Virus record (IMG/VR): IMGVR_UViG_3300020186_000013
Location: 1 to 64,000 of that record
Reading direction: 5' to 3' (one strand)
From: a virus
DNA length: 64,000 nucleotides
Part shown: positions 17,001 through 63,720 of the stretch, in pieces
Layout: each line of letters begins with the position of its first letter
Numbering within the stretch: position 1 is the first letter of the stretch
The notes under the pieces: model-generated
The model's database searches: none
Told to the model about the DNA's origin: nothing
What the model saw: the letters and a program-made list of their open reading frames with translations, nothing else
Translations under genes and position numbers: made by a program

Positions 17001-17552
17001 GCGGGCCTCGATCATGGCCTCCAACAGGATCTCTCCCGTCGAACCAACCAGGTAGCGGCACTTCTCGCTCTCCTCCTTCCACGGCATCTTGCCAATGACC
17101 ATCACCTTCGCAGGGTGCGGGCCGTCGGTCACCGGTGGCTTTACGTACGGGTCCATCTCAGACTGGATGAACGCCGCCATGTGCTGACCCCAGATGTGTC
17201 CGGGGACAAACGTCACCTCCTTCGGTGGCTGACCAGGGCGGACCTCGACCCGCAACGGGAACAGGGGCTCCCGGAGTGCCCGGCGGTAAAGCGTGTCCAA
17301 CCGCTGGGACGGCCGGTAAATGAGCTTCCCGGTCTTCTTCTCCTTCATGAAGACAGTCTTCAGCTCGGGCGGGTCGTCCTTCTCCTCGTGGTCTGTGAGC
17401 CGCAGGAAGTTCGGCCCCGGCGGGGGCATGCCGGGGGCGTTCCAGTGGTACGCCCCCCGGTTCAACATCATCTTCCGCTGGGTACGGACGACCTTCTTCT
17501 GAAGTTCCGCACCCAGAGTCACGACCCGACGCTTGAGCCGTTCAATTTCCAT
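14079..17552 (-). CDS. Family A DNA polymerase with UDG-like and 3'-5' exonuclease domains
   Basis: Replicative polymerase of 1157 aa. Residues ~145-310 form a uracil-DNA-glycosylase superfamily domain (VMVIGKMP; YVTSLVKFMPP; ILLLGADASKALLG; VVHPAQVARD) but without the four Fe-S cysteines of family 4 enzymes. Residues ~350-560 are a DEDDy exonuclease: AIDAEW (358/360), GHFFVADL, YGNYDADAT. The polymerase has TGRWKSSRPNLQNI (783), motif A RDLMGAELR (D863), motif B RNIAKTVIFGIAYG (957-970) and motif C QIHDALL (1096-1098). Motif C reads HDA instead of HDE, so the second carboxylate is Ala. SPO1-like and other phage polymerases have the same UDG-PolA fusion. Starts inside the primase stop region (11-nt overlap). 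Confidence 0.93.
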   Translation of the reverse strand: MEIERLKRRVVTLGAELQKKVVRTQRKMMLNRGAYHWNAPGMPPPGPNFLRLTDHEEKDDPPELKTVFMKEKKTGKLIYRPSQRLDTLYRRALREPLFPLRVEVRPGQPPKEVTFVPGHIWGQHMAAFIQSEMDPYVKPPVTDGPHPAKVMVIGKMPWKEESEKCRYLVGSTGEILLEAMIEARISRQEMAHWYVTSLVKFMPPDDQTTLKSGWIADCMPLLHQELRIVKPDYILLLGADASKALLGSKAGVGYMEGRLVPFEFPVHFDEDSEPIIHQAMCMTVVHPAQVARDPASRRTLERGCGRFAFVLKEAKTGLTETDIDHRKCTSWEEYLAWEEEAAADLANEPPGMNIIAIDAEWEGTHPVNSNSYVRTIQMSWGHKKAICFVLNDTEGKCCFKDKNGKDATARLAKATTKFVNQYRIVGHFFVADLEHLVYHGFDFRKGFFIPTEDAEDGTPFWVRCMQGEGGLDTGMMIHSIEETALLGLESVAMRYTTCPRYDIALEDSVVELCKQLKIKRKALEGYGKIPDDILVPYGNYDADATRRIAVTAMGYLDEDYEFNCVWEPFGGSMLTLPIILEIHQQGIFVDIKRVKKLTRDFSTARASLEQAIVDEFGWPEFNIRSVQHVKEVLFGVEYNGKVTKDGEPIRLRPKGAKCLRVEPLLTTDKPPKKWSDIVAMGRTRDHTPGTGKAVLAILAQENPEVADQINMIRDYRFLDQVLKSLLRTPEEDANQNWITQKDEQGNILLDDEGGEEYEFTEGIAGCIDDDGMVRTHLYPTAETGRWKSSRPNLQNISKTRDPDYERLLVGDDGKTLYKHKLRSIFRSPPPGTLTPQTFWKDGKKVEGWVATTAEDEWELGERDLMGAELRGMAIMSNSTLMIDHTARALTYAEDGYSIDGMRCTHGEAGAPLKKCKTCPYPHPEFHDIHSSVAKMAFKLSCHPSKPGLASIGKVHLRNIAKTVIFGIAYGRQAKAIALAAKEQRKPGEPEVSVDDAQAVIDAVFAMYPELQDFFAEARFRAVNVGWLCNCFGRMRRFPATSDSKLEGEFERQAMNFPIQSMIADFVDRWLSVLHQARERLLPEFGEYIFYWQLQIHDALLIRNKKKYRDYIHNVLIPWSLTQVPIYPTRLNGTPIEGRGPYYLGSDKEICTWWGEKI

Positions 17553-18663
17553 TTGTTGGCACCTTAGCGAACGACACCTCGACGCCCTGGTCTTCCGCCT
17601 CCGCGATCACGTACTCGCGAAGGAAGTCTCGGTCCAGGGAGCCGGGGTCCGTATTGGGGGGCAGCTTGACGACCGCGACGTGCTCCATCCTCGCCTTCAG
17701 CTTCCGGACCAAGTCCTTCGTGGCGACCGTGTCAAACTCCTCGGGGTCGAGGAGCACCACGCCCGCCCGCTTCTTGAACACAGCCACGAAGTCACGTTGC
17801 TGCTGGGACGACAGGGTCTTGCCCAACAGCGGCATGGCCATGGGACCAAACGCGAACACGTCAAACCAGCCCTCGACGAGTACGCCGGTATGGAACTCCC
17901 TGGCGTTGTCGAGGTTCGCCAGGAACGCACTCTTGGGCATATTCGGTTCGGTGAAATACTTCGGCGGGAGGTTACGCTTGTTCGGCCCCTTCCAGTCCAG
18001 CTCCCCGCAGTACCGGGCCTGCCAGCCCACCAACTTGCCCCGGTTACGCATCGGGACAATGATCCTCTTCCGGGCCAGGTAGTGGACGGACTCCTCGCAA
18101 TAACCCACCCCGTAAAACTTCGAGAGGACGACAGGGTCGAGCTTACGGCCCTTGATGTAGCTGTAGGCCGGATGGCCCTTATCCAGCTCATGTAGCGGCG
18201 TCACCACGCCCGGCAGCCTCGCCTTGAGTTTGGACAAGTCGACGACCTTGCCGACCCGGATCGTGGCACGGGCCAGCTTCAGGGTCGGCGAGTACAGCAT
18301 GTCACGTAGGGTCTTGCGGTTGTCCCCTTTCCCCATGCACGACTCGTTGTAGCAAATCGTCATGAAGTCCAAGCTGCGACCGGACTCCTTGTCCTTGGTG
18401 CCGTACCGATGGTTGATGTACAGCCGAAACGTGGTGTCGTTACAGAACGGGCAGCACACCCGGTAATACTCCCCGTCTTGCTTGATCACCATGTAGTCGC
18501 CGCCACGGCTCAGGACCTGACCGTCGCCCTGCACCTGACCGTCGACGGCGGGGGTGTAGCCCGGACGGGAGTACCCGTCAAAGGCTTGGCCCTTGTTGCT
18601 GATCTTAACCCCGCCGAACACCTCCTTCAGCCGGTCGTAAAGGACCTCGTTGAGAGCCGTCAT
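17542..18663 (-). CDS. DnaG-type DNA primase
   Basis: A 373-aa primase that makes RNA primers for lagging-strand synthesis. The N-terminal zinc site is Cys71/74 (CCPFC) with Cys104/109 (CYNESC). The TOPRIM domain shows VLVEGWFDVFAF (~262-272) and VVLLDPEEFD (~302-311), giving the catalytic Glu and DxE residues. RNRGKLVGWQARY is the conserved pre-TOPRIM segment. No C-terminal helicase-binding domain is obvious, in line with its short length. ATGA overlap with the helicase gene and an 11-nt overlap with the polymerase gene make a compact replisome operon. Confidence 0.9.
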   Translation of the reverse strand: MTALNEVLYDRLKEVFGGVKISNKGQAFDGYSRPGYTPAVDGQVQGDGQVLSRGGDYMVIKQDGEYYRVCCPFCNDTTFRLYINHRYGTKDKESGRSLDFMTICYNESCMGKGDNRKTLRDMLYSPTLKLARATIRVGKVVDLSKLKARLPGVVTPLHELDKGHPAYSYIKGRKLDPVVLSKFYGVGYCEESVHYLARKRIIVPMRNRGKLVGWQARYCGELDWKGPNKRNLPPKYFTEPNMPKSAFLANLDNAREFHTGVLVEGWFDVFAFGPMAMPLLGKTLSSQQQRDFVAVFKKRAGVVLLDPEEFDTVATKDLVRKLKARMEHVAVVKLPPNTDPGSLDRDFLREYVIAEAEDQGVEVSFAKVPTNGN

Positions 18664-20444
18664 AGGCTCGCCTCCGTGCTCGTGTTGGAGAAGGGCGGTG
18701 CCGCCTTCTCTTTCTTCTTCGGTGCGGTGTTACCCTTCGGCGTGGCGGCAGCACTGTTGTTATCCTCTTCCGGCTCGTTGTCCTTGGCTACGCCGTTGGC
18801 CTCCGCGAGGGTCATGATGGTCGCACCCTGGATGCAGTACAGTTTCGACATGTTCTTAATGCGGTTGAACTCGCCCTCGATCTTGACGATCTTCCGCGAG
18901 TTCGGTGGCTTGCGGCGGTACTTGGTGACATCGAAGACGCAGAACTGATTTCCGTCCTTCGTCGCCGGGCCGGTGACGATGCAGAAGTCCGCGAACATGC
19001 CCACGGTCTTGCACTCGTCGCCGTCGGTGTGATGGAACTGGGCCGAGGGTCCCCGCTCGTTAGCCGACCCGGAGAACTGGTGGACGATCCACACCGGGCA
19101 GCCCAGAGGCACACCGATGAAATCGACGGCCTGCTTCGGGGCACGCTTGAGGATGTGCCGCTTGTTGTCGTCCGTGAACTTGTCGTCCGACCCGACCATG
19201 TTGTCGATCATGGCCGCGAGGTGGTCAATCCACACCACAGTAATCTGGCACTTGTCGAGAGCCGCTTGGGCCTTCAGTCGAGCGGCCAGCTCCAGCATGC
19301 CGCCGCACCCCTTCGGGTTGATCTCCGACCCGACGCTAGTCATGTCCAAGAAGATGCCGTGCTTACGGATCAGCTCGACCGCCGCTTCGACACGCTCCCA
19401 CTCGCCCATCAGCGACGCCGGGTCGACACCCTTCGCGATCTCCGTCGCGTACAACGTCTCCTCGTACTTCTGGAGGGGCAACTCGCCCGTCTTCCGAAGG
19501 TCCTGCATCGTGGCGACGCTGGCGACGCCGAGCATCCGGTCGCGTGAGATGTCGGCCAGGAATGCAAGGCACCGCTGGCGGACCTCGTTCTTCTTGGTCT
19601 CGTACGTGGCGTACACAGCCTTATACAGGACCCGCGTCTCACTGCCCGCCGCCTCGTACGCCGCGTTCTCGGTCACCGTCCGGTCGTGAGCGGCCTTGAC
19701 GCTGACACAGAACGCCTGGACGGCCAGGGTCGTCTTACAGGACGAGAACGGGCCGAAGAACAGGTAACACTCACCTGCCGTCTGCCCGCCAATGAACTCG
19801 TCGAGCACGCTGACGCCAGTGGACTCCAACTTGGGCTGCGTCTCGTGCTGCCAGCCGTCGTCGAACAGGGCGTCGGTCAGGGCGTTAGAGTCCTCAGCAG
19901 CCGACGCGATGGAAGCGACCTTGTCCTGGAGCACCTGCATCAGGTTGTTCGAGACGGTGCCATCGCGAATCAGAAGTGACAGATCCCCGGCCACCAACTC
20001 GTCCTTGAACTGGCGGACGACCTTGGTCGCCTCCTTGGCGTGCATCGTCGACGTGGTGACGTCATAGTCCTGCCAGGTGGCGGGCTCGAAGATGTAGCCC
20101 TTGATGAACTCCTCGCACTCGTCGATCTCGTCCTCGGTCAGGAGGGTCGGGTAGGCGATGAGTTCGTTGTTGACGTCGGTCAGGAGAATCTGTGCGTCGG
20201 GCAGCTGCTGCGTCTGCTTGTAACACTTACGGACGCACCGCCAGATGACGGCGTAGAACTCACCCATCTTCGCGACGTCGGCGTCCTTGAGCACCTTGTG
20301 AGCGAACTCGAACACCGTCGGGTTGCGGACGGCAACCGCGAACATGAGCTGCTTCTTGAGGAGCGACAGCATGCCCCGCCGGCCAATTTTGGCCAAGGGC
20401 TCGCCGTCCTCCGACAAGATCTTGGAGGTCTTATGCTTCGCCAT
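18660..20444 (-). CDS. DnaB-like replicative helicase
   Basis: A 594-aa helicase with an N-terminal helical region (~30-120) like DnaB-N and a RecA-fold ATPase. The P-loop is GPFSSCKTTL at 231-240, where Cys236 replaces the usual Gly of GxxxxGK[ST]. Walker B is VVWIDHLAAM, and the later strand VWIVHQFSG carries the Gln/His sensor position. An insert of ~100 residues lies between motifs 1 and 2. The C-terminus is Lys/Pro/Asn-rich. Overlaps the primase gene by 4 nt. It should unwind DNA at the fork; whether the Cys substitution affects ATP binding is untested. Confidence 0.87.
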   Translation of the reverse strand: MAKHKTSKILSEDGEPLAKIGRRGMLSLLKKQLMFAVAVRNPTVFEFAHKVLKDADVAKMGEFYAVIWRCVRKCYKQTQQLPDAQILLTDVNNELIAYPTLLTEDEIDECEEFIKGYIFEPATWQDYDVTTSTMHAKEATKVVRQFKDELVAGDLSLLIRDGTVSNNLMQVLQDKVASIASAAEDSNALTDALFDDGWQHETQPKLESTGVSVLDEFIGGQTAGECYLFFGPFSSCKTTLAVQAFCVSVKAAHDRTVTENAAYEAAGSETRVLYKAVYATYETKKNEVRQRCLAFLADISRDRMLGVASVATMQDLRKTGELPLQKYEETLYATEIAKGVDPASLMGEWERVEAAVELIRKHGIFLDMTSVGSEINPKGCGGMLELAARLKAQAALDKCQITVVWIDHLAAMIDNMVGSDDKFTDDNKRHILKRAPKQAVDFIGVPLGCPVWIVHQFSGSANERGPSAQFHHTDGDECKTVGMFADFCIVTGPATKDGNQFCVFDVTKYRRKPPNSRKIVKIEGEFNRIKNMSKLYCIQGATIMTLAEANGVAKDNEPEEDNNSAAATPKGNTAPKKKEKAAPPFSNTSTEASL

Positions 20445-44206: not shown

Positions 44207-47200
44207 ATGTCTACCTCCAAAAAGTTGACGATCGCGGAACAGCTGAAGATCAAGAAGAAGAAACAGCAGTCGGCGTTCCTCCAGACGGCGTCCCTCTCCA
44301 AGAAGGAGATGGGCCTGACGGGCTTCGAGGACGAGTGGACCAAGCGACTGATCATTGCCCAGCACTACCTGAAGAAGAGTAACGTCGCCAGCCTGCGGCC
44401 CATCTTGCCCGCCCTCCTCCAGCTCAAGGGCAAGCCGTACCACCTCAACGATCACTTCCCGTTCGAGCCCTTCTTCCGCACCCGCATGCCCTACATGACC
44501 CTCCTCAAGACGGGCCGGCAGGTGTCGAAGTCGACGAGTCTCTCGTCCCAGGGCATCATCTTTAGCAACGCCATCCCGTACTTCTCGACGCTGTACGTCA
44601 CACCGCTGTACGAGATGATCCGGCGGTTCAGCCACAACTACGTCCGGCAGTTCATCGAGACGTCGCCCGTGAAGCGACTGTTCATGAACTCCAAGACGAT
44701 CAACTCCGTCCTCCAGCGGTCGTTCCGCAACGGTTCGACCATGTACTTCAGCTTCGCGTACCTCGACGCCGAGCGTACCCGAGGTATCCCCGCCGACAAA
44801 GTTGTCATTGACGAGAGCGTAAGACTCGGTACAATGATCAGTACCCACACCGGCTCACGCCCGATCGAGACGTTCTCGCCCGGCGACGCGGTCCTGGGGT
44901 TCGACGAGGCTGGTCATGTCCGAAAAGATGAAGTCGTCAAGTGCTCCGACCACGGGGTCCGCGACTGCTACAGGTTCGAGTTCTCCGGCGGGTCGGCGGT
45001 CGAAGCTACTAGCGATTCTTGGCTCGCCACCACCGCCGGATGGAAACGGGTCGAAGCTGTCATCACTGACCTCAGCACAAGAGCAGATGATGCTGGGTTC
45101 GATGTTGGGCGACGGGTATCTGCGGAACACCGGCAAGCATTCGGCGTTCACGAGTCGTCACGGCTGGAAGCAGCACGCCTACAACTGCCGAAAGTTCCAG
45201 GTGTTATCCGAGTTCGTACGCACGCCTCCCAGGAAAGTGAAGAACTACGGCTACGGCGAGTGGTCGAGTCTGTGGCAGACTCGACAATCGGAGGCTTTGC
45301 AGGATATCGCTTCCTTGTGTCTCCGGGACGGCAAGAAGCGTGTGACGTCGGAGTGGCTCGACAGGATGACGTGGGAAGCGGTCGCGTGGTGGTACATGGA
45401 CGACGGCTCGCTCCAACTGCGGACGGCCGTGTTCAACACGCAGGGTTTCACGTCGGCGGAAGTGAAACTCCTGGCGAACTGGTTGACGGTTCGCGGGGTG
45501 GACGCGAAAGCCGCGAGAATCACGTCGCGGCACAACCCGACTGCGAGCTACTGGATCGTGCGACTGTCGGTCGACTCGACGCGTACGCTGGCGGCACTGA
45601 TCCGACCGTACGTGTTCCCGGAGATGACTTACAAACTGGACCTGCCTGCGAAGGCCGAGGCCCTGACCTGTCACTGGTGCTCGAAGGCGTTCGTTCCGGC
45701 TACGAACGGGCAACGGGTGTACGGCACGGGCGAGCAGAAACCGTGCTGCCGCTCGTCAACGTGCAAGGCCGAGCGGCACAAAGAACTCAACGAAACGCTG
45801 ATGGCGAAACCCGGCAAGCGGGGCGAGAAGAACGCCAAGCAGCGGGAGGGCTATGCGACGGACTTGGATACCCGTCGCAAGTACGAGCGGGAGAAGGCAG
45901 CACGCCTGTACGCGAAGAACCGGGAGAAGAGACTGGCGTACAAGAGGGCGTGGCGTGCCTCCAAGAAGTCGATCTCGTCCGGGTGACGTGGACGGGTAAG
46001 CACCGCGTTTTCGATCTCGAAACCAAAAACCACAACACGTTCCTGGCCGGCGGCGTCGCGGTACACAACTGCCAGGAGATGAACTACGACTTCTTGTCGA
46101 TCATCCACGAGACCTTGTCGGGCTCCCCGTTCGGCCTCAAGCAGTACGCGGGCACGCCCAAGTCGCTTGAGAACACGATCGAGAAGCTGTGGACCGACAG
46201 CAGCCAGGCCGAGTTCGCCATCAAGTGCCACCACGGTGGGTGCAACTACTGGAACGTCCCCGCCCTGTCCCACGACCTCGTGAAGATGATCGGGCCATGG
46301 CACTCGGGCATCTCCGAGCAGTGCCCCGGTATCGTCTGTGCCAAGTGTCGCAAGCCGATCGACCCTCGCCGCAACGGCCGGTGGATTCACGCCCAGCCCA
46401 ACGTGCGGTGGTCATTCGCCGGTTACCACATCCCGCAGATCATCATGCCGATGCACTACGCCACCCCCAAGAAGTGGGACATGCTGGTCGGCAAGATGCA
46501 GGGGCGGGGCAACACGCCCATGAACGTCTTCTTCAACGAGGTGTGCGGCGAGAGCTACGACGTGGGGTCGAAGCTGGTGACGGTCACGGAGCTTCAGGCG
46601 GCAGCCTGCCTGCCGTGGGAGAACAAGATCGAGCAGGCCGAGAAGCACCTGGACCAGTACCTGTACAAGATCCTGGCGGTCGACTGGGGTGGGGGTGGCG
46701 GCAAGCTGCGGAACTCGGCTGCCAAGCCCGGCAGCGAGCAGCGGGAGCGGACGAGCTACACCGTCCTGGTGGTCATGGGCATGCGGCCCGACGGGAAGAT
46801 CGACGTGATCTGGGGCCTCCGGTCGCTGCGGACGCACGCCCACGTCCACGAGGCCGAGCTGTGCATCGCCGCCATCCAGCGGTTCAAGTGCAGTCACTTC
46901 GTGCACGACTTCAATGGGGCGGGGGCGATCCGTGAGACCTTGGTGCGTCAGGCGGGCTTCCCGATGGGCAATATCATCCCGATCGCGTACCACGCCTCGG
47001 CCAAGAAAAACATCATGGTACACAAGCCGCCGACCGACGACCTGCCGCGTGACTGGTGGACGGTCGACAAGAGCCGATCGCTCCAGCTCACGTGTGAGTT
47101 GATCAAGTCCGGCCAGCTGCGGTTCTTCAAGGACGACTACCGCAGCTCCGACGACGCCGGGCTGATCCGTGACTTCCTGGCACTCATTGAGGAGAAGACG

Positions 47201-47416
47201 GAGAGGCCATCCGGCGGCGACGTGTACTGCATTACCCGCAACCCGACCGCCTCGGACGACTTCGCCCAGGGGGTCAACATCGGGTGTTGTGCGTTGTTCC
47301 AGTTGAGCGGTCAGTGGCCCGACGTGGCGGCGGCGAACCACCTGATCCTGCCGCTCGACGTCCTGTCCCATGTCCACCCGCAGCACCAGCCGGACTGGGA
47401 CGACGCGGGGAGCTAG
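44207..47416 (+). CDS. terL: Terminase large subunit, intein-containing precursor
   Basis: DNA packaging motor (ATPase plus headful nuclease). The precursor frame is 1069 aa; the exteins total 651 aa. Walker A is GRQVSKSTSL (about 103-112), and Walker B VVIDE (199-203) is interrupted by an intein exactly before CQEM. Nuclease domain: ILAVDWGGGGG and HDFNGAGAIRETLV, plus a zinc-type insert (CHHGGC...CPGIVCAKC). One of only two plus-strand genes; the stop TAG at 47416 shares CTAG with the convergent neighbour's stop. Shine-Dalgarno is weak. Neighbouring portal/capsid genes are outside the window. Confidence 0.9.
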   Translation: MSTSKKLTIAEQLKIKKKKQQSAFLQTASLSKKEMGLTGFEDEWTKRLIIAQHYLKKSNVASLRPILPALLQLKGKPYHLNDHFPFEPFFRTRMPYMTLLKTGRQVSKSTSLSSQGIIFSNAIPYFSTLYVTPLYEMIRRFSHNYVRQFIETSPVKRLFMNSKTINSVLQRSFRNGSTMYFSFAYLDAERTRGIPADKVVIDESVRLGTMISTHTGSRPIETFSPGDAVLGFDEAGHVRKDEVVKCSDHGVRDCYRFEFSGGSAVEATSDSWLATTAGWKRVEAVITDLSTRADDAGFDVGRRVSAEHRQAFGVHESSRLEAARLQLPKVPGVIRVRTHASQESEELRLRRVVESVADSTIGGFAGYRFLVSPGRQEACDVGVARQDDVGSGRVVVHGRRLAPTADGRVQHAGFHVGGSETPGELVDGSRGGRESRENHVAAQPDCELLDRATVGRLDAYAGGTDPTVRVPGDDLQTGPACEGRGPDLSLVLEGVRSGYERATGVRHGRAETVLPLVNVQGRAAQRTQRNADGETRQAGREERQAAGGLCDGLGYPSQVRAGEGSTPVREEPGEETGVQEGVACLQEVDLVRVTWTGKHRVFDLETKNHNTFLAGGVAVHNCQEMNYDFLSIIHETLSGSPFGLKQYAGTPKSLENTIEKLWTDSSQAEFAIKCHHGGCNYWNVPALSHDLVKMIGPWHSGISEQCPGIVCAKCRKPIDPRRNGRWIHAQPNVRWSFAGYHIPQIIMPMHYATPKKWDMLVGKMQGRGNTPMNVFFNEVCGESYDVGSKLVTVTELQAAACLPWENKIEQAEKHLDQYLYKILAVDWGGGGGKLRNSAAKPGSEQRERTSYTVLVVMGMRPDGKIDVIWGLRSLRTHAHVHEAELCIAAIQRFKCSHFVHDFNGAGAIRETLVRQAGFPMGNIIPIAYHASAKKNIMVHKPPTDDLPRDWWTVDKSRSLQLTCELIKSGQLRFFKDDYRSSDDAGLIRDFLALIEEKTERPSGGDVYCITRNPTASDDFAQGVNIGCCALFQLSGQWPDVAAANHLILPLDVLSHVHPQHQPDWDDAGS
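44816..46069 (+). other. Intein in terminase Walker B, splicing domains only in the extein frame
   Basis: Starts at Ser204 (SVRLGTMISTHTGSRPIETF) after VVIDE and ends GVAVHN before Cys+1. Block B reads VEATSDSWLATTAGWKRV, lacking the usual TxxH histidine (Ser instead). The F/G blocks are HRVFDLETKNHNTFLAGGVA. In between, the extein frame stays open for ~900 nt but is nonsense-like (Arg/Gly/Val-rich); the homing-endonuclease domain is encoded in the +1 frame (44916-45986). Confidence 0.85.
44916..45986 (+). CDS. LAGLIDADG homing endonuclease, out of frame inside the terminase intein
   Basis: An ORF in frame +1 relative to terL with both LAGLIDADG motifs: MMLGSMLGDGYL near 45088 and AVAWWYMDDGSL later. 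KLSSLTSAQEQMMLGSMLGD looks like the normal linkage after intein block B. A Cys pair (CHWC...CC...C) and a basic C-terminus precede its own TGA at 45984-45986. Start unsure: ATG 44916 or ATG 45088, both with poor SD. It may be a nested free-standing nuclease or a frameshift-expressed domain. Confidence 0.7.
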   Translation: MSEKMKSSSAPTTGSATATGSSSPAGRRSKLLAILGSPPPPDGNGSKLSSLTSAQEQMMLGSMLGDGYLRNTGKHSAFTSRHGWKQHAYNCRKFQVLSEFVRTPPRKVKNYGYGEWSSLWQTRQSEALQDIASLCLRDGKKRVTSEWLDRMTWEAVAWWYMDDGSLQLRTAVFNTQGFTSAEVKLLANWLTVRGVDAKAARITSRHNPTASYWIVRLSVDSTRTLAALIRPYVFPEMTYKLDLPAKAEALTCHWCSKAFVPATNGQRVYGTGEQKPCCRSSTCKAERHKELNETLMAKPGKRGEKNAKQREGYATDLDTRRKYEREKAARLYAKNREKRLAYKRAWRASKKSISSG

Positions 47417-48318
47417 ATTGGTTTTGGCATCGGGTTATCGGGGTAGTATCGAATGGACACGTTACGGTCCTTCTGCCAGGCATTCCAAGCGGAAATGCAA
47501 CAGAACAAGAACTCACGAGGCTTCTTGCTCTTCCCGCCGTTCTTGCTCTTGATGACGGTGACACCCAGCCACTTCGCCAGTTGGCGGGTGGTGACGGTTG
47601 CCGGAGCACCGCTCTCCTCGCGAACTTCAGTCCAGAACTTCGTAGCTCTATTGGCGTCTACCTTGTAACTGCCGAACATCGCGGCGACCACCGGAGCACG
47701 CCGCAGGAAGCGAGCCTTGGTGCTGTTCAGGATGTCCACGCACCACAAGCAGAACGGGACAAAGTGTTGCAGAAGTTGAGCCCGTCTTGGGGCATCACGA
47801 GTACACAGTGTAAGGTTCTCCAGGCCCTCCGGTTCGCATTTGTACGTCGAAACGTACGTGTACAACCCGGACACCAGCAGATCGACCGTCTTGCCGTCGA
47901 GGCTGCACAGTTCCGGGATGATGCTGGCGTACATGCGGTTGATGTCGTTGAACTTACGGACGGATACGGTTGAGTCGAACGTCCCGTAGAGGGCTGCGAC
48001 GTCCTGCATCGTATCGCATTCGTAGTCTTGGACGGTGGCGTAGACCCGCTTGCGACCTTTGGTACTGCACTTCGACAGTGCAGTTGACGTGTGTTTGCCG
48101 TTGAGCCGGTAGATTAACCCTGTCTCGCGACAGAGAACACGTGCCCACTCGACAGCTCGTAACATTCCGGTGGCGACGTTATCCTCGTGAGTTTCGAGCC
48201 GAACGGCATCCTTATCGCGGTCGACTCCTGCCGCCAACATTTGAGACCACTCAGTTGCGACCTCTTGTGTGATGAGCACAATTTCTGGTTTGCCGTTGTT
48301 GAGAGCCCACCAAGCCAT
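47413..48318 (-). CDS. ParB/DGQHR-like protein (tentative)
   Basis: A 301-aa protein. LIYRLNGKHTSTALSK and the following VYATVQDYECDTMQDVAALY, then FDSTVSVRKFND, resemble the ParB-like/sulfiredoxin-fold N-terminal domain of DGQHR-type phage and plasmid proteins. ATG 48318 has GGAGG 6 nt upstream, in front of a strong promoter/operator candidate (48346-48398). The family call rests on remembered motif patterns. Stop shared with terL's CTAG. Confidence 0.6.
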   Translation of the reverse strand: MAWWALNNGKPEIVLITQEVATEWSQMLAAGVDRDKDAVRLETHEDNVATGMLRAVEWARVLCRETGLIYRLNGKHTSTALSKCSTKGRKRVYATVQDYECDTMQDVAALYGTFDSTVSVRKFNDINRMYASIIPELCSLDGKTVDLLVSGLYTYVSTYKCEPEGLENLTLCTRDAPRRAQLLQHFVPFCLWCVDILNSTKARFLRRAPVVAAMFGSYKVDANRATKFWTEVREESGAPATVTTRQLAKWLGVTVIKSKNGGKSKKPREFLFCCISAWNAWQKDRNVSIRYYPDNPMPKPI

Positions 48319-48345
48319 GTTGCACCTCCGGTGTTTGTGAGCGGT

Positions 48346-48398
48346 GCGAGTGCGGCGTATAACACCGCACTCGCGACGCTGTCATATGCCGCACTCGC
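48346..48398 (-). promoter_or_regulatory. Promoter with three operator copies upstream of 47413-48318
   Basis: Three copies of GCGAGTGCGG/CCGCACTCGC: a perfect 10-bp inverted repeat (48346-48355 and 48365-48374) and a third at 48389-48398. On the minus strand ATGACA, 18 nt, TATACG makes a -35/-10-like pair, with the -10 inside the loop of the dyad, as expected for a repressor overlapping the promoter. It sits ~30 nt ahead of the SD. Confidence 0.6.
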
Positions 48399-48495
48399 AG
48401 CGATGTACGCACAGAGAGACTAGCCAGTCTGTGCACTAATCAGCAAGGTCAGTAGTGACAAAATGATGCTTTTGCGGCAGGACTGTAAACCGTCG

Positions 48496-48511
48496 TAAAT
48501 ACTGGAATTAG
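48496..48511. repeat. Degenerate gene-junction palindrome
   Basis: TAAATACTGGAATTAG, ~12 of 16 bases like the canonical copies, overlapping the TAA stop (48508-48510) of the Cys-rich gene. Likely a diverged eighth copy. Confidence 0.45.
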
Positions 48512-48810
48512 ACACATCTGGCTGACACCGTGTCCGACGGCTTGTAGAGCGGGATGCCGACGCACCCGCACGTGAACGTCCACGTAGGGCTCAGGCCGTC
48601 CTTGGTCAGTACGACGGAACCGTGCTGGGCGTCCTTGCACTGCTCGCAGTCGTCGTTGAAGTCTGTGTGGAACGGGCCGGGCCGACCGTTCATCGACTCG
48701 TGGGCCACGCACATCCCCTGGCAGGCGGGCCAGGAGTACGCACACACCGGGCAGTCGTCGTCGACCCCCAGCTGGCAGGTCAGGTCCTTGAAGTCATCCA
48801 TCGTTGCCAT
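48508..48810 (-). CDS. Cys-rich 100-aa protein
   Basis: A protein with CPVCAYSWPAC, CEQCKDAQ and FTCGCVG clusters, perhaps two zinc sites. Starts MATMDDFKDLTCQLGVDDDC. No family recognised. It overlaps 48794-49003 by 17 nt. Confidence 0.6.
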   Translation of the reverse strand: MATMDDFKDLTCQLGVDDDCPVCAYSWPACQGMCVAHESMNGRPGPFHTDFNDDCEQCKDAQHGSVVLTKDGLSPTWTFTCGCVGIPLYKPSDTVSARCV

Positions 48811-49003
48811 CGGAATCCTCTTTCTCGGCGGGCGTGGCGGTCTTGAGTTCGACCGCCAGCCGCCAGTTCTCGGCCTTCACAACGAACTCGTACTCGTCGT
48901 ACGGCAGGGGTGTCACCTCAAACCACTGACTTGCCTCGACGAGACCAACGGCCATACGGTTGGCCTCGGTTGTGTTGTTAGCGATGATCTTGTACAGCTT
49001 CAT
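48794..49003 (-). CDS. Small 69-aa protein
   Basis: ATG at 49003 has GGGAG 7 nt upstream. The sequence MKLYKIIANNTTEANRMAVG, then EFVVKAENWRLAVELKTA, suggests a small alpha/beta protein. Function unknown. Confidence 0.6.
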   Translation of the reverse strand: MKLYKIIANNTTEANRMAVGLVEASQWFEVTPLPYDEYEFVVKAENWRLAVELKTATPAEKEDSDGNDG

Positions 49004-49017
49004 GTTGTCTCCCGAGT

Positions 49018-49617
49018 TCAGTGCTTTCTTCTTCTCTTCTTGGTCCTCTGCCGCATCTCGGCCCGCGTCTCGTTTAGCGACATTTCGACGACGTGCGGCG
49101 GGATCTTGTTGTAGACGTCGATGACCGAGTGGTGGAACTGTTTGTCCTTGCCGTCGTTGATCTCCTTGCCCCACCGGAACCAGTCGACGACCGAGACGAA
49201 GTACGCGGCCTCCGCGTGATATCCAACTTCCGCTACGATGCCCTCCAGCTCCGTCTTAATGGGGACGATGTCGATGCCTTGGAACTCGTTGCAGTCGGGT
49301 TCGAGAGCGTCTGCGACCATGGCAAGGGTGATGTTCAGAAGCTCGACACCTTGCTGGTTGTAGACGTTGCCCGACTCCTTGTCGAAGATGCCCCCGGTGC
49401 GGACGAGTACGACCATGAGCACCCGTTTCAGGTCCCACGACAGTTTCTCGGCGTACAGCATCAAGTAGCGTTTGTAGATCTTGTGGAGTTCCACCCCGAG
49501 CGGGATCGGGTAGCGGTGCTCGGCGGCTTTCTTGATCTTCACCGCAGCCTCTTCAACGTCATCCCAGATCTGTTCTTTGACCACTCTCCATGCCGATGCG
49601 TGCTCTCGCGAATCCAC
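49018..49617 (-). CDS. Tandem paralog 1, helical, LKRVLMVV motif
   Basis: A 199-aa helical protein (AWRVVKEQIWDDVEEAAVKI; LSWDLKRVLMVVLVRTGGIF; FVSVVDWFRWGK). It shares order and motifs with the 49649-50125 protein (AWR start, LKRxLMVV, DW block), so the two arose by duplication. The C-terminus is basic (QRTKKRRRKH). GTG at 49617 has AAGGGG upstream. Unknown function. Confidence 0.6.
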   Translation of the reverse strand: MDSREHASAWRVVKEQIWDDVEEAAVKIKKAAEHRYPIPLGVELHKIYKRYLMLYAEKLSWDLKRVLMVVLVRTGGIFDKESGNVYNQQGVELLNITLAMVADALEPDCNEFQGIDIVPIKTELEGIVAEVGYHAEAAYFVSVVDWFRWGKEINDGKDKQFHHSVIDVYNKIPPHVVEMSLNETRAEMRQRTKKRRRKH

Positions 49618-49636
49618 GTCTGTACCCCTTGTGATG

Positions 49637-49652
49637 TAGAAACTGGCTTTAA
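49637..49652. repeat. 16-bp gene-junction palindrome, copy 5
   Basis: TAGAAACTGGCTTTAA. The right half contains the TAA stop (49649-49651) of the 49649-50125 gene, and the copy lies between the two tandem paralogs. Confidence 0.65.
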
Positions 49653-50125
49653 GGTCTCGGCTGGTCCAGCAGCCTCTCCATTGCTGCCGCGAAGGGAGGA
49701 TGGAACGACGCCCAATCGTCCAGCGTCAGAAAGTACACGACGTCCGCCCCGATGCCGTTCTTCTTAATGAGCTCGTCCAACTCTTCGGCGATCTCCTTGA
49801 TGTTCGCTTGGAAGCCCGGAAACAACTCGGTGTCGGAGTCGCTCGCGTCCATGACCGTGCCCAGCGTCGTCTTCGACGACCGCGACCAGCACTCCTCTTG
49901 GTCCATGGCGGGGTCGAAGCGAGCTTCGTTGTCGCGGATGACGACCATGAGGAGCCGTTTGAGGTTCCACGTCATACCGAAGTTTTGCAGGATGCTGTTG
50001 AACATCTGCAACGACCGGATGGACTTGTGCAGTTCCTTTTGGTTGCGGTTGTGTGCGGCCCTCCGCAGAGTGCCCGCCTCGTTTTCGATCTCCCGCCAGG
50101 CGTTCGCTATCATTCGCTGGTCCAC
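49649..50125 (-). CDS. Tandem paralog 2 of the LKR-LMVV family
   Basis: A 158-aa paralog of the previous gene: AWREIENEAGTLRRAAHNRN, TWNLKRLLMVVIRDNEARFD and VVYFLTLDDWASFHPP. GTG start at 50125, with GGAGG ~8 nt upstream that also covers the TAA of the preceding gene. Function unknown. Confidence 0.6.
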   Translation of the reverse strand: MDQRMIANAWREIENEAGTLRRAAHNRNQKELHKSIRSLQMFNSILQNFGMTWNLKRLLMVVIRDNEARFDPAMDQEECWSRSSKTTLGTVMDASDSDTELFPGFQANIKEIAEELDELIKKNGIGADVVYFLTLDDWASFHPPFAAAMERLLDQPRP

Positions 50126-50139
50126 AGTATGTTCCTCCG

Positions 50140-50660
50140 TTATCGGTTGAGGGGGTCGCTAAAGTAGTGCACGCCGACGATGGCGTGCACCAGGTTGCTG
50201 ATGCCCCGAACTCAAACAACTCGCGGGCAACCTCTTCGACGGACGCGGCAGTCGGCCTCCACCGGACGTACGTCACCATCTTGCCACGCTGTGTTCGCCG
50301 TGCGACTCGTGTCGGGGTTCTTCTCCCCCACCCGCCGCTGTTGTAACTGTGCAAGTAGTACGGCAGCCAGCTACTGATGTACTGGCGACCGACCCGTATA
50401 GCCACGAACGAGTGTGCGGGCAGGTAGAGCATGATTTTGTTCGCGATCCTTTGCGTCGTCGGCTGGTGGATAGTCGAGTCAAGTAGGGCGTGCAGTGGGT
50501 CGGGCTTGTCGTTCAGGTACAAGAGCAACGCATCGGCCCACGGGTCGTCGCTGTGGACGCTCTCCTTCAAGTGGTCGGCGAACGAGAACAACGCCGTCCG
50601 TTCGAGCGGCTGAGTCATGGCCGCAATGCCGTGCGTCAACAACTCCTGGTCAAGGACCAT
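50140..50660 (-). CDS. Unknown protein with likely frameshift in a CCCC run
   Basis: From ATG 50660 (MVLDQELLTHGIAAMTQPLE) the frame is convincing through EEVARELFEFG. At the C-run 50204-50207 (GGGG on the coding strand) it becomes junk, while a -1 shift gives GISNLVHAIVGVHYFSDPLN and a TAA at 50140-50142, overlapping the SD of the next gene. The shifted protein is ~172 aa. Either a programmed -1 event at GGGG or a 1-base indel. Confidence 0.6.
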
Positions 50661-50676
50661 CAGGTTCCTTTCTGCC

Positions 50677-51201
50677 TTATTGCTGAACCAGCAAAGCCGT
50701 GACGTGCATCTCGTCGATGACGTTGCCTTCTTGCAATTGTTGGACGATGTACAGCAATGCTTTTTTCTGCCCGCATCCGGTGGGTAGACTTTTACCTACA
50801 TGTGCGATCGCCAGTAGCAGTTGTGCGATCTGTTGCTTATGTCCTGGACCGTTGTTGCCTCCGATTTTGCCTGCGATCGTCGGCTGTGTGATCACAAACC
50901 AGGGCACCATTCTTCGGTCTTTACGTACGGTGCAGGATCGGATTACTCCTTGTCGCACGTACCCAGCGTGGTGCAGGTCGGTCAGGCGTCGACGCACCTC
51001 TTGTAATTCACGCAGCTCTTTCTGCTGCTTAGCCGTTGCCTTGGTCCACAGTTCGACGGCGGTGCAACCCGGCCTAGCTGCGACCATGCTCAGAACCATG
51101 ATGGCGTGTTTGGCCTGAGCACCGGATGTGACGTGAGCGTGTGCCGCGTCGGAACTTGAACTCGGATCTCCAGTATGGAACAGGGGGTTGTCAAGATCCA
51201 C
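50677..51201 (-). CDS. Winged-helix DNA-binding protein (tentative)
   Basis: A 174-aa protein. CTAVELWTKATAKQQKELRE, RRRLTDLHHAGYVRQGVIRS and RMVPWFVIT have the order helix-helix-strand wing of a winged helix with an Arg/Leu recognition segment. GTG 51201 has AAAGGA 6 nt upstream. Could be a regulator or replication accessory; partner unknown. Confidence 0.6.
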   Translation of the reverse strand: MDLDNPLFHTGDPSSSSDAAHAHVTSGAQAKHAIMVLSMVAARPGCTAVELWTKATAKQQKELRELQEVRRRLTDLHHAGYVRQGVIRSCTVRKDRRMVPWFVITQPTIAGKIGGNNGPGHKQQIAQLLLAIAHVGKSLPTGCGQKKALLYIVQQLQEGNVIDEMHVTALLVQQ

Positions 51202-51204
51202 GTG

Positions 51205-51774
51205 TTATCCTTTCTTTGTTTTCTCCGCAACGAACTCATTCACAGCGTTGAGAGCGTCCGTGCAGTTGCAAGCGTAGCCGTACGTGCCGTCGGGGCGGAA
51301 GACGATCTGCTGGCTGGCCCGGCACTTGTCACACCGCCCAGCACTAAGCCCGCCGAGCATGTACTCGATCTCGGCCGCTGTCGGCTTGCGACCGAACAGC
51401 CGCTTGAACAGGCTTGCGAAGCTCTGCTCCTCCCGCGTGGTCGCCGTCGCGGTCTGCTGGTTGGCTGCGTGCGACGTGGCCATGCAGCAGCTCCGCAGGC
51501 CGTGGAGGATTGAGCTGTAGGCGGCACACACCGTCGCGGGCGTCGATGCTGCCGCCGACCCTTTGCCGACCCGCACGTTCAGCTTCTTCAACCACACCGC
51601 CCGAGTGACGTTGCCGGGGAACTCGACCACGCCCACCCAGTAGGAGTGACCGAACCCGCCCGACACCTTGCGGCGTTCCCGCAAGATCCCGGTCTCGTTC
51701 GTTGTCGTGTCGAACACTTCCTTGCCCTTGTTCTCGTCGGCTGCGTCATGCCTACTCCTTACCTGTGAGTCCAC
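51205..51774 (-). CDS. Unknown protein with zinc-like end; start uncertain
   Basis: A ~189-aa protein ending CDKCRASQQIVF...YACNCTDAL with a Cys cluster. The upstream start is unclear: the best SD (AAGGAG) precedes an ATG in a different frame that soon ends, while the coding frame only has weak GTGs (51774 used). A small indel near 51740 would reconcile them. Confidence 0.5.
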   Translation of the reverse strand: MDSQVRSRHDAADENKGKEVFDTTTNETGILRERRKVSGGFGHSYWVGVVEFPGNVTRAVWLKKLNVRVGKGSAAASTPATVCAAYSSILHGLRSCCMATSHAANQQTATATTREEQSFASLFKRLFGRKPTAAEIEYMLGGLSAGRCDKCRASQQIVFRPDGTYGYACNCTDALNAVNEFVAEKTKKG

Positions 51775-51988
51775 GATCCTTGCACTCTCTGGCCAGATCC
51801 AGGGCGTCTTCCGGGGTCTCGCCGCGTCCGAGGAAGAACCCGAACGCGACGTCAATCAGGTCCATCATGTAGTCGTCGGCCTTGTCCTTGATTATGTCGT
51901 GGCGTTCACGCCACGCCTCGACGTGGACCTTGACCCACGCAGCGACATCGAAACCTTCTTGACCGAGTTCATTGGCTCGCTTGCTCAT
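51752..51988 (-). CDS. Unknown 78-aa protein
   Basis: ATG 51988 overlaps the upstream stop (ATGA). Helical (KVHVEAWRERHDIIKDKADD; EDALDLARECKDRGLTG). Function unknown. Confidence 0.6.
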   Translation of the reverse strand: MSKRANELGQEGFDVAAWVKVHVEAWRERHDIIKDKADDYMMDLIDVAFGFFLGRGETPEDALDLARECKDRGLTGKE

Positions 51989-52260
51989 AGATCCTCCCAG
52001 TTGATCTCGGGCAGGCACTTCCACCCGAGCTTCTTCAGGATGTAGTGATTGTGATGGTGGTGAAACATGACTTCGGGGCTGGCGTCCCAGTCCGGACTCA
52101 CCAGCGTGAACGTCCCTCGTCCAGGCAAGATCACGTACGACTGGCCCGTGCGGGGGATGCACCAGATGCCACGTTCGTTTACGTTGCGGATCAGCATGCG
52201 GAAGAACTCCATGTCCTTCTTCGTCGGTTCGTACGGTTTGAGCTTCTTCGTGTCGGCCAT
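51985..52260 (-). CDS. Unknown 91-aa protein
   Basis: Starts MADTKKLKPYEPTKKDMEFF; later TFTLVSPDWDAS and HHHHNHYILKKLGWKCLPEI. A His-rich patch may bind metal. The start at 52260 borders the large non-coding repeat region. Confidence 0.6.
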   Translation of the reverse strand: MADTKKLKPYEPTKKDMEFFRMLIRNVNERGIWCIPRTGQSYVILPGRGTFTLVSPDWDASPEVMFHHHHNHYILKKLGWKCLPEINWEDL

Positions 52261-52876
52261 ACTGTCTCCTAAGTTCGATGGGGATAAAGGTTGACGTACC
52301 TTGATGGCGTTGTCAGAATCTTTCAGTCCTAAGTTCTGTGCGTGCGTGAGCTTACCGCTGAGTTCGATTTGCCCAGTTAAGCACCCGGCGTATCGTGTCA
52401 GGGATTTGCGAGATTTTGTAAGAAAGACGACGGCTAAGTTCGACGTGCGGAGAGTCCCTGATACTCGCGTTGCACATTTCCTGACCGGATAAACTTGGTT
52501 TGAACGTCCGCCCTAAGTTCGATTTCAGACGTATACACCAACACGTACGACTTTCCGATGAACTTCGGGTCAGCATTAAGTTCGAGGCCGATCCGACTGA
52601 GTTCCGACTCCCGGTCTGTTATGGCAGACCCACGACAAAATCTGTCACACGTTCGACAGCTACCTAACTCCTTACACCGCCGCTACTTCTGCCAAGTTCG
52701 AGGGCGGTGTCGGTTTTCCCCGGAGCCTAAGTTCGATGTGCCGGAAATAATGTTTGAAAACCTTCTCTGGATTATTTCCGCCTCGAAGATCCCCCAGCGG
52801 TCGCACGGTGCGACCGCCGGATCGAACTTAGAGGAGCCCATCATTCGCTCCAGGATCGCGTTTACGGGGCATTCAC
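52261..52876. repeat. Non-coding region with CCTAAGTTCGAT-type repeats (candidate origin)
   Basis: The largest gap in the window (616 bp). Copies of (C)CTAAGTTCGAT or close variants begin near 52268, 52328, 52357, 52433, 52512, 52575, 52691 and 52726, with an inverted one at 52821. Spacings are irregular (29-116 bp). No ORF or tRNA. It is immediately downstream of a CHC2-type primase-like gene. Iteron-like origin, partition site or operator cluster are all possible. Confidence 0.65.
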
Positions 52877-54550
52877 CTACGAGTCGCCTTCTGCCCCGCC
52901 CGTGTCGTGGATCGGCTGCTGGAAGCCCAGGGCGGCGGTCATGAGGTGACCGCTGCCGAAGTTGGCCTGGACGTAGAGGATCGCCCCGTTCTGCCGGGCG
53001 ACCTTAACCAGGTACGCGGGCAGGTCATTCTCGACACTGGTTGAGGGTGCCTCGAAGCGGATCTCCTTACCCGCCATTAGCAGCCGCCCGTGGTACTTCG
53101 TGCGGCCGTCTCGCAGGACGATACGGTCGAACCGGAGGTAGGCGTTCATGATCGGCCGCAGGCGGGTCTTGTGGTTCGGACTGTGGTAGTACAGGTTGCC
53201 GCCCTCCTCGACGTACGCGGCGTTGGCCCTCGGGGCCGGGGTCACCCGCCGCTCCTTCGCCGGCTCACACAACCTGTTGGCGATGGCAGCGGCGTCCGAG
53301 GTCAACTCCTTACGGAGGTCACTGATGTCGACCTTCTCCCGTTTGAGCCCCAACAGCAGCCCTTCAGCCTGGTGGTCCTCGGCCCCCGTCAGGAAGGCCG
53401 ACACCGCCACCCGCCACGGCCTCGCTTGCCTGACGATCTTCTGGAACATCTGCCCGGCGTCGCAAGACCGCAGGTAGTGGTCGACGCTCCGCGAGGACAG
53501 GTCCTCGGGTGAGGCGAGGGAGATGTGGCCGTTCACCTTCATGGCGTGCAGCACGGTCGCGGCGTCCATACGCCAACTCCACAGCACCACCTTGCGGCCC
53601 GCCAGGAGCTGCCACGCCCGGTGCGTCCACTGCGTCTCCCCGTGGTGGTAGGCGACCATGGGGAGCGGGTTCATGCTGTTCTTGGCGTTACGGACCTGGA
53701 TGCGGGCCAAGAGCATCGGGCTGTTGACGGCGATGACCGTAGCGTTGGAGGCGTCGGACGGCATGACGCAGTCGAGGCCCGCGAGCCCGACTTCGTCACG
53801 GCCTCGGAGTCCGCCCTTCATGGACTCGATCGACTTGACCACCATGTCCTCCTTCGAGCCGCGTCGGCCTACGAAGAAGAACGCACTGAGACGGTCGGGC
53901 AGGTCGTAGTACGGCACGACGAGGATCTCGTTCCAGCCCCTCCCCCGGAACAGCGGGGTGCCGCTGTGCCGGAGCATGCGGTTCACACCCGGCACGGTCG
54001 TTCGGGGACAAAAGGCTTTGGACGCCAGCCCCGCCAGCGACGCCCCCAAGATCTTGCCAGGGCCACGCCGCCACAGCTCGGGGCTCAGGTTGATCGTCAG
54101 GTGGAACCGGGTAAGGAGAAAGTTGTGGCCGGGGGTCCGCGAGTGGGACTCCAGGTTACGCTGAGCGTTCGCCCATAACCCACGCATCGTGTCGCGGCGG
54201 GCAACGATCTCGTCGACGTGCTTGCGGATGCGTTCGTCGGTGAACGTGCCGTCCGGGACTGCGATCTGGCTCTCGGTAATCTTGAGCAGCGTCTCGGGGA
54301 GTGGTAGTTTCCAGACGCTGGCGGCGAGGTCGATCATGTCGCCCGACGACCCGCAGCCGAAGCAGTTGCACCAGACGGCCTTCCGGATCGGGTCGTCGTA
54401 AACGTGAAACCGATCTCCTCCGCACAGCGGACATACGGTACGCTGGGGAAGTGCCTGACCGTTAGTGGGAATGCCAAGAACGGCAAACACCTCCGTCCAC
54501 CGAAGGTGAACGTCCAGGGATAATCTTAAAGGAGCCCCCATCCATGCCAC
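52877..54550 (-). CDS. CHC2-zinc-finger primase-like protein
   Basis: A 557-aa protein. The N-terminal zinc finger CPLCGGDRFHV ... VWCNCFGCGSSGDMIDLAAS (Cys40, 43, 61, 63, 66) is of the DnaG/CHC2 type. TOPRIM-like elements downstream are degenerate, and the rest is unassigned. GTG start 54550 overlaps the divergent plus-strand gene's ATG (54544) by 7 bp; a later ATG at 54541 is possible. It complements the canonical primase at 17.5 kb and could be a primase paralog or a DNA-binding protein acting at the adjacent repeat region. Confidence 0.65.
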   Translation of the reverse strand: MAWMGAPLRLSLDVHLRWTEVFAVLGIPTNGQALPQRTVCPLCGGDRFHVYDDPIRKAVWCNCFGCGSSGDMIDLAASVWKLPLPETLLKITESQIAVPDGTFTDERIRKHVDEIVARRDTMRGLWANAQRNLESHSRTPGHNFLLTRFHLTINLSPELWRRGPGKILGASLAGLASKAFCPRTTVPGVNRMLRHSGTPLFRGRGWNEILVVPYYDLPDRLSAFFFVGRRGSKEDMVVKSIESMKGGLRGRDEVGLAGLDCVMPSDASNATVIAVNSPMLLARIQVRNAKNSMNPLPMVAYHHGETQWTHRAWQLLAGRKVVLWSWRMDAATVLHAMKVNGHISLASPEDLSSRSVDHYLRSCDAGQMFQKIVRQARPWRVAVSAFLTGAEDHQAEGLLLGLKREKVDISDLRKELTSDAAAIANRLCEPAKERRVTPAPRANAAYVEEGGNLYYHSPNHKTRLRPIMNAYLRFDRIVLRDGRTKYHGRLLMAGKEIRFEAPSTSVENDLPAYLVKVARQNGAILYVQANFGSGHLMTAALGFQQPIHDTGGAEGDS

Positions 54551-62708: not shown

Positions 62709-62923
62709 CACAACCTTTCGGTTTGGTCCTTGTCCGCCTTGACGGACTCGGTCTCGCTGTCTTCGACGATCCACGCCTTGGCGGGGAAGCGACCCGACAG
62801 GGCTGCCTGCACGGCGTTGTGCTCGGCCTCCTGCTGCGTCGCCCCCTCGACGGTGATGTCCATCGTCGAGTCAACCTGCTCACGCCGGAGGAGGGTTACC
62901 CGCCACCGCTTTTTCTTTGCCAC
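62708..62923 (-). CDS. Unknown 71-aa protein
   Basis: GTG 62923. WRVTLLRREQVDSTMDITVE, then AALSGRFPAKAWIVEDSETE. Small alpha/beta protein; overlaps 62880-63116. Confidence 0.55.
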   Translation of the reverse strand: MAKKKRWRVTLLRREQVDSTMDITVEGATQQEAEHNAVQAALSGRFPAKAWIVEDSETESVKADKDQTERL

Positions 62924-63116
62924 TGTCCTTCTCCTTGGTGTCGACCAGGAGCCACACGCGGACCCAGACCTGCTCGGTGCCCAGCGACACGTGGTCGGGC
63001 ACGTCGTGCTTGATGCCCTTCTCGGCGAGCATCTTCACGGTCGCGTCGACGTACTGCTGCTTGGTGGCCTCGCGTTGCTCGGGCGTCAACTTTTCGGGGT
63101 CGTATACGATAGGCAC
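62880..63116 (-). CDS. Unknown 78-aa protein
   Basis: VWVRVWLLVDTKEKDSGKEK end with a helical middle (QQYVDATVKMLAEKGIKHDV). Start at 63116, close to the intergenic control region. Function unknown. Confidence 0.55.
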   Translation of the reverse strand: MPIVYDPEKLTPEQREATKQQYVDATVKMLAEKGIKHDVPDHVSLGTEQVWVRVWLLVDTKEKDSGKEKAVAGNPPPA

Positions 63117-63213
63117 GTTTGGTCTCCGGGAATAGGGTCATGGTTTTGGAATTCCATGACCCCATAAAAAATCGAACTTAGGGTCGAGTTAGAAACCGGA
63201 TTCTATGTCGAAC
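63117..63213. promoter_or_regulatory. Intergenic hub: hairpin, palindrome and repeat copies
   Basis: Contains a 9-bp-arm hairpin (GGGTCATGG at 63135-63143, CCATGACCC at 63154-63162), two inverted repeats of the CTAAGTTCGAT element (63171-63183 and near 63208) and the 16-bp palindrome (63190-63205). It is the only place where both repeat classes meet. Confidence 0.6.
63190..63205. repeat. 16-bp gene-junction palindrome, copy 7
   Basis: TAGAAACCGGATTCTA. Unlike most copies it does not contain the stop codon of the upstream gene (63214), though it lies 9 nt away. Confidence 0.65.
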
Positions 63214-63720
63214 TTAAGCCGGCAGCGTTTCGTCTTCGTCCTTCTCGCGGAGTTCGAGCACCCGCTTTATGGCGTCTATGTGGTCGGTTTGCTCGACGCT
63301 GCGACTACCGGCGTCCGGGAAAGCCGCCTCCCTAACAGAGAGTTCTTCCCGAAGTTCCGGGGTGGTTATCAGCTTGTACACACGGATCAACGTGTTGTCG
63401 AACTCCTCCTCTTCTTCTTCCTCGGGGTTCTCACCGAATTGCTCCGTTGCTTCGTAGCGGAGCGTATCCCAGTTGACGCCCTGCTCAGCGTCGTGGTTAC
63501 GGTTCGCCTCCCGCAGCACCTCCATGGCCTGCTCGTCGGTCAGACCGGCGTAAATGCTGTGCACGTCCCTGACGTCCCACGTGATGGCGATTTTATCTTT
63601 CCAGTAGTCCTGAAGGAGTGCCAGGACTGCCTTATTGATCGCCTTCTTGGTCTTGAGCGGCTTCGCGGTCAGCTTCGCTGCGACCAGCTCGGCCATCTTC
63701 TCCAATTGGTGGCTGTACAT
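63214..63720 (-). CDS. Unknown 168-aa protein
   Basis: ATG 63720, GGAG nearby. Helical (KTKKAINKAVLALLQDYWKD; VEQTDHIDAIKRVLELREKD) with an EEEEEEE acidic run. Overlaps the upstream truncated gene by 89 nt. No family recognised. Confidence 0.55.
   Translation of the reverse strand: MYSHQLEKMAELVAAKLTAKPLKTKKAINKAVLALLQDYWKDKIAITWDVRDVHSIYAGLTDEQAMEVLREANRNHDAEQGVNWDTLRYEATEQFGENPEEEEEEEFDNTLIRVYKLITTPELREELSVREAAFPDAGSRSVEQTDHIDAIKRVLELREKDEDETLPA

Follow-up and report, generated by a model that had tools for sequence, protein, structure and literature searches.

The repeat-bearing gap and its neighbours

The analysed window comprises bases 1-64000 of the IMG/VR virus record IMGVR_UViG_3300020186_000013, which has a total length of 208,145 bases. 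A 616-bp gap (52261-52876) follows the stop codon of a primase-like gene and precedes the start codon of a 91-aa gene, both on the minus strand; it was initially annotated as non-coding and as the only gap of more than 600 bp in the window. Both statements held when gene calls were made with a home-made gene model: no gene was predicted inside, and no other gap of that size was found in the window or across the whole record, of which this is the largest gap. The gap has a GC content of 52.3%, compared with 62.5% genome-wide. In genome scans with 100-bp steps, it was overlapped by the 616-bp stretch of lowest GC, which begins at 52201, and by the least stable 600-bp duplex, beginning at 52178. 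No tRNA, Rfam or CRISPR match was found in the gap and no significant DNA copy of it elsewhere in the genome. A near-identical twin, IMGVR_UViG_3300020596_000027, shows 10 differences in 13.7 kb, none of them in the gap. The features of the locus and the intergenic copies of its repeated word elsewhere are as follows.

47413 to 52260, minus strand: accessory gene block, which only this phage and its twin carry at this position
51985 to 52260, minus strand: first gene 3' of the array, 91 aa, the twin being the only genome in which a relative was found
52261 to 52876, no strand: array-bearing non-coding gap
52268 to 52279, plus strand: copy 1, CCTAAGTTCGAT
52328 to 52339, plus strand: copy 2, CCTAAGTTCTGT
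52357 to 52368, plus strand: copy 3, GCTGAGTTCGAT
52433 to 52444, plus strand: copy 4, GCTAAGTTCGAC
52512 to 52523, plus strand: copy 5, CCTAAGTTCGAT
52575 to 52586, plus strand: copy 6, ATTAAGTTCGAG
52691 to 52702, plus strand: copy 7, GCCAAGTTCGAG
52726 to 52737, plus strand: copy 8, CCTAAGTTCGAT
52794 to 52820, no strand: strong hairpin AGCGGTCGCACggTGCGACCGCCGG 3' of the primase-like gene stop, putative terminator with no T-run after it
52821 to 52832, minus strand: copy 9, inverted, TCTAAGTTCGAT
52877 to 54550, minus strand: primase-like protein with a zinc ribbon and a DnaG-like fold, no conserved catalytic acids
63171 to 63182, minus strand: outside copy CCTAAGTTCGAT, flanked by genes 63214-63720 and 62880-63116
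63207 to 63218, minus strand: outside copy CTTAAGTTCGAC, overlapping the TAA stop of gene 63214-63720
71633 (genome position), minus strand: third outside intergenic copy

The nine copies reported in the initial annotation (eight direct and one inverted) were recovered with the same coordinates and counts, each with 0-3 mismatches to CCTAAGTTCGAT. Alignment of the 12 intergenic copies revealed an asymmetric conserved core of 11 bp, cTAAGTTCGAt, the flanks of which carry little information. The spacing was indeed irregular (60, 29, 76, 79, 63, 116, 35 and 95 bp, a range of 29-116 bp, with spacers of 17-104 bp between the copies) and showed no helical phasing. Near its two ends the gap carries copies 1 and 9, which are inverted relative to each other. 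As read from the minus strand of the sequence, the TTAGG of copy 1 merges with the AGGAG ribosome-binding site that precedes the gene starting at 52260. A hairpin around each copy was also considered; it exceeded base-shuffled flanks, but was dropped at P values of 0.07 and 0.16 against random gap and intergenic positions.

Across the window the word, at 3 mismatches, was found 34 times where 31 occurrences were expected, and 9 of the 34 lie inside the gap. Since the loosely matched word is no commoner than chance in the window, the evidence for an array is the clustering, which is far beyond chance. The 8-mer AAGTTCGA occurs seven times in the gap, whereas in 3,000 dinucleotide shuffles no 8-mer occurred more than six times and nearly all maxima were three or fewer. 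Likewise, eight occurrences of the heptamer AGTTCGA were counted in the gap against 0.2 predicted from its density in the genome. A weight matrix built from the copies gave a cluster P of about 1e-19, a value that is optimistic because the matrix was trained on those very copies.

Distribution of the word in the genome and among relatives

The related elements noted earlier at 63171 and near 63208 were located at 63171-63182 and 63207-63218, and nine of the 12 intergenic copies lie in one gap. One further full match, at 149385, falls inside a gene conserved in relatives and is probably a coincidence. Apart from this match, every full-strength copy is placed between the stop of an upstream gene and a downstream minus-strand start (52260, 63116 and 71518). 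When 100-bp segments were ranked genome-wide by duplex weakness, those at 71.5, 63.1 and 52.2 kb came first, second and eighth, respectively, as is expected near promoters. The orientation of the copies is split: eight of nine in the gap run against transcription, whereas all three outside intergenic copies run along it.

A second intergenic motif, the 16-bp palindrome TAGAAACYGGAWTCTA, occurs about 20 times in the genome, mostly between genes, and its start often coincides with the stop of the gene upstream (in the window, for example, at 1349, 11293, 43209, 55980 and 63190). It lies within about 60 bp of the word at both 63.2 and 71.6 kb and is possibly a phage promoter, terminator or operator.

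Relatives were gathered through the terminase and a 390-aa protein whose gene adjoins the primase-like gene, which yielded about 70 distinct related loci. The order terminase, primase-like gene, 390-aa gene is kept in these relatives, and in the closest of them terminase and primase-like gene abut; only in this phage and its twin are the two separated by the 4.8-kb accessory block. Among the accessory genes (47413-52260), a homologue in G002 or G003, two collinear relatives, was found only for 47413-48318; it was weak, came from G003 and lies elsewhere in that genome. An array beside the primase-like gene was absent from the about 70 syntenic relatives, the near-identical twin excepted, and no array of this motif was found in G002 or G003. 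When the collection was scanned for three AAGTTCGA spaced 45-75 bp apart, 31 stretches were returned besides the twin; by their motif contexts these resemble coding DNA in tandem repeats, and most have spacings divisible by three. The second collection scan, for paired CTAAGTTCGA, returned the twin and one contig with no matching flanks. On this comparison the array belongs to an accessory region of one lineage.

Interpretation of the array

The preferred reading is that the gap holds a lineage-specific multi-site binding array which controls the accessory operon that begins at 52260 and whose binding factor also acts at 63.2 and 71.6 kb. We hold it tentatively, at a probability of about 0.42, and mainly because the word is co-located with likely transcription-control points at the latter two loci. 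At least nine asymmetric 11-bp sites (cTAAGTTCGAt) would be bound by one sequence-specific protein, encoded by the phage or its host. By coating the 570 bp that precede the accessory operon (minus strand, 52260 to 47413), this protein would turn transcription of the operon on or off; ahead of the genes 62880-63116 and (genome) 70913-71518 it would act through one or two sites. Protein binding, the operon and transcriptional control at the array are what we infer from this arrangement. Neither an RNA structure nor a phased origin complex suits the compact asymmetric core, the uninformative flanks and the lack of phasing or significant hairpin context as well as independently bound protein sites do. 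The array also borders a lineage-restricted gene block, which was likewise counted in favour of the regulatory reading. Several points count against the preferred reading: nine sites over 570 bp are many for one operon, the split in orientation is not what a simple orientation-dependent operator predicts, and AT-rich non-coding DNA with direct repeats is also how an origin looks. Nor was a binding protein or a convincing promoter identified, as the only sigma-70-like match points the wrong way. If the gap is a control region, one word and three loci constitute a testable regulon.

Among known systems, mycobacteriophage L5 carries more than twenty operators/stoperators spread through its genome and oriented with transcription (PMC9283540). 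Like the sites described here, they are short asymmetric phage words in promoter regions and short intergenic spaces (PMC9283540); here, however, nine of 12 sites are concentrated in one gap, the orientation is mixed and no repressor was identified. The 12 intergenic copies resemble L5-type sites in asymmetry and placement, but their orientation does not follow transcription. A literature search on such arrays in jumbo phages found nothing. For these phages, uncultured and with tubulin-family and multisubunit RNA-polymerase genes, origins and regulatory switches are little mapped in the literature searched.

The main rival to the regulatory array, which we consider unlikely, is a lineage-specific replication origin, at which an initiator would bind the direct repeats and melt the AT-rich gap, as at plasmid iterons, lambda ori or P4 ori/crr. 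Origins of this type have directly repeated sites clustered in AT-rich non-coding DNA. The array shares this organization, with eight of its nine copies directly repeated in the largest gap of the genome, which overlaps the genome-wide minima of GC content (616-bp windows) and duplex stability (600-bp windows); single copies also recur in other weak-duplex gaps. To this extent the origin proposed in the initial annotation finds partial support. The array differs from iteron origins in its irregular, unphased spacing, in the lack of a recognised initiator gene beside it (its neighbours are a DnaG-like protein with no conserved catalytic acids and unrecognised accessory genes) and in a position that is not kept in relatives. 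As about 70 relatives have no array at that place, it is not the shared replication origin of the family. The gap 52261-52876 contains neither a DnaA box nor a skew change, and GC skew across the complete genome, which had been suggested as a check, reaches its minimum at 73 kb, not at the gap, and its maximum near 141 kb. The skew changes sign at about these two positions, and bends are seen in the cumulative curves of G002 and G003 as well; the pattern may reflect gene content rather than replication.

The initial annotation had also relied on the neighbouring gene as a second primase. The zinc end of the 52877-54550 protein does match phage primase profiles, and its predicted structure (pLDDT 88) resembles Aquifex DnaG (E 3e-8). 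Across 24 relatives, however, the protein has no conserved DxD, and the only acidic columns conserved at 80% or more are D50, near the zinc ligands, and E445. Judged by what is generally known of DnaG/Toprim enzymes, the missing conserved acids make it improbable that the protein works as a primase. Genes for a DnaG-like primase and a DnaB-like helicase lie together at 17542-20444. The argument from a second primase beside repeats is therefore weak, since the conserved acids are missing, the replicative pair lies elsewhere and relatives have the gene without the repeats. An iteron-like look and an adjoining primase-like gene are insufficient to call an origin. If the gap were nevertheless an origin, the family would be keeping its replisome order without a fixed origin. 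A reverse-transcriptase lead (RT_UG29) was rejected, as no reverse-transcriptase family match was found in G000 and what the profile hit in G003 was the zinc end of its primase-like gene.

A broader form of this idea, a newly acquired lineage-specific site controlling replication or segregation in a jumbo phage that has its own RNA-polymerase subunit and tubulin-family protein, with satellite sites at 63 and 71 kb, seems improbable. If true, it would show that such phages can exchange or replace origins or centromeres while keeping the remaining replisome.

An RNA element also seems improbable. Here the eight AUCGAACUUAGG of gap transcripts would pair with CCUAAGUUCGAU on the 63.2- and 71.6-kb mRNAs, and with copy 9 in cis. 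This model was kept open because the orientation split, with eight of nine gap copies antisense and the three outside copies sense, is unexplained by a simple operator. The first accessory gene might be controlled in its translation, since copy 1 overlaps its ribosome-binding site. The predicted minus-strand fold, which pairs the gap ends, is somewhat stabler than shuffles (z -2.27, 20 shuffles). Set against this, the gap belongs to no Rfam family, hairpins around the copies do not reach significance (P 0.07-0.16), and comparison is limited to the near-identical twin, too similar for covariation analysis, and to array copies that are not independent of each other.

Just as improbable is the view of the gap as what remains, now functionless, of a decayed gene, a CRISPR array or a mobile repeat. 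The gap is peculiar to one lineage, it adjoins accessory genes and its copies 1 and 9 are an inverted pair near its ends, all of which would suit a remnant; the copies at two other intergenic loci argue for function instead, and the absence of a significant DNA copy of the gap in the genome also speaks against it. With CRISPR arrays the locus shares that repeats are separated by unrelated spacers. The identical repeats of about 25-40 nt at regular spacing that accompany Cas genes in CRISPR systems are lacking: the repeats of 11-12 bp, with spacers of 17-104 bp and one copy inverted, are unlike the CRISPR array of G002 (36-nt repeat, 72-73-bp period), and no Cas12u1 match was found in this genome.

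The least probable explanation is a centromere-like site for partition or a site for packaging, to which a segregation or terminase protein would bind: although plasmid centromere arrays (ParMRC, TubZRC) consist of directly repeated short words, which the asymmetric sites resemble, and although the record encodes a tubulin/FtsZ-family protein and has its large terminase gene 5 kb off, no partition protein or operon, TubZRC-type or other, was recognised beside the gap, the tubulin-family gene is far away (200.4-201.9 kb), so that the partition role proposed initially is not favoured, and relatives keep tubulin and terminase without the array. A ParB-like fold suspected in 47413-48318 was not confirmed, the model being unusable at pLDDT 42.

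Further observations on this genome and its relatives

A position-conserved repeat locus 7-9 kb upstream of the terminase was considered and rejected, as it proved to be a CRISPR array in G002, a few palindromes in G003 and a five-base periodic stretch in L025. In two relatives (L025:2890-3700 and L158:1-1100) non-coding-looking stretches carry CC every five bases (autocorrelation 0.4-0.49 at lag 5). The CRISPR locus of G002 (L081:9596-12260, corresponding to G002:149596-152260) comprises a Cas12u1/Cas12f-like nuclease and an array of 11 repeats (36-nt repeat). Two solitary CRISPR repeats with similar upstream sequence lie near G002:124.1 kb and 136.0 kb, and Cas12u1 matches were found in G012 too.

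The 390-aa protein had its sole genome-collection match in L108 (JAFQXE010000002.1), a contig of 183 kb that was binned into a Thermoguttaceae (Planctomycetota) MAG, which hints at the host group. The record encodes an RNA polymerase beta'-like protein (genome 134565-138401, L010) and the tubulin/FtsZ-family protein (200425-201903, L013); proteins of both kinds are present in some nucleus-forming jumbo phages.

The large terminase (window 44207-47416) contains an insert of roughly 400 aa whose two ends, residues 216-290 and 593-623, give intein-like matches and whose inner part has a relative only in L018. The thymidylate synthase ThyX (window 2152-4269) is 705 aa long and includes a LAGLIDADG-like stretch, which suggests that it carries an intein or homing insert.
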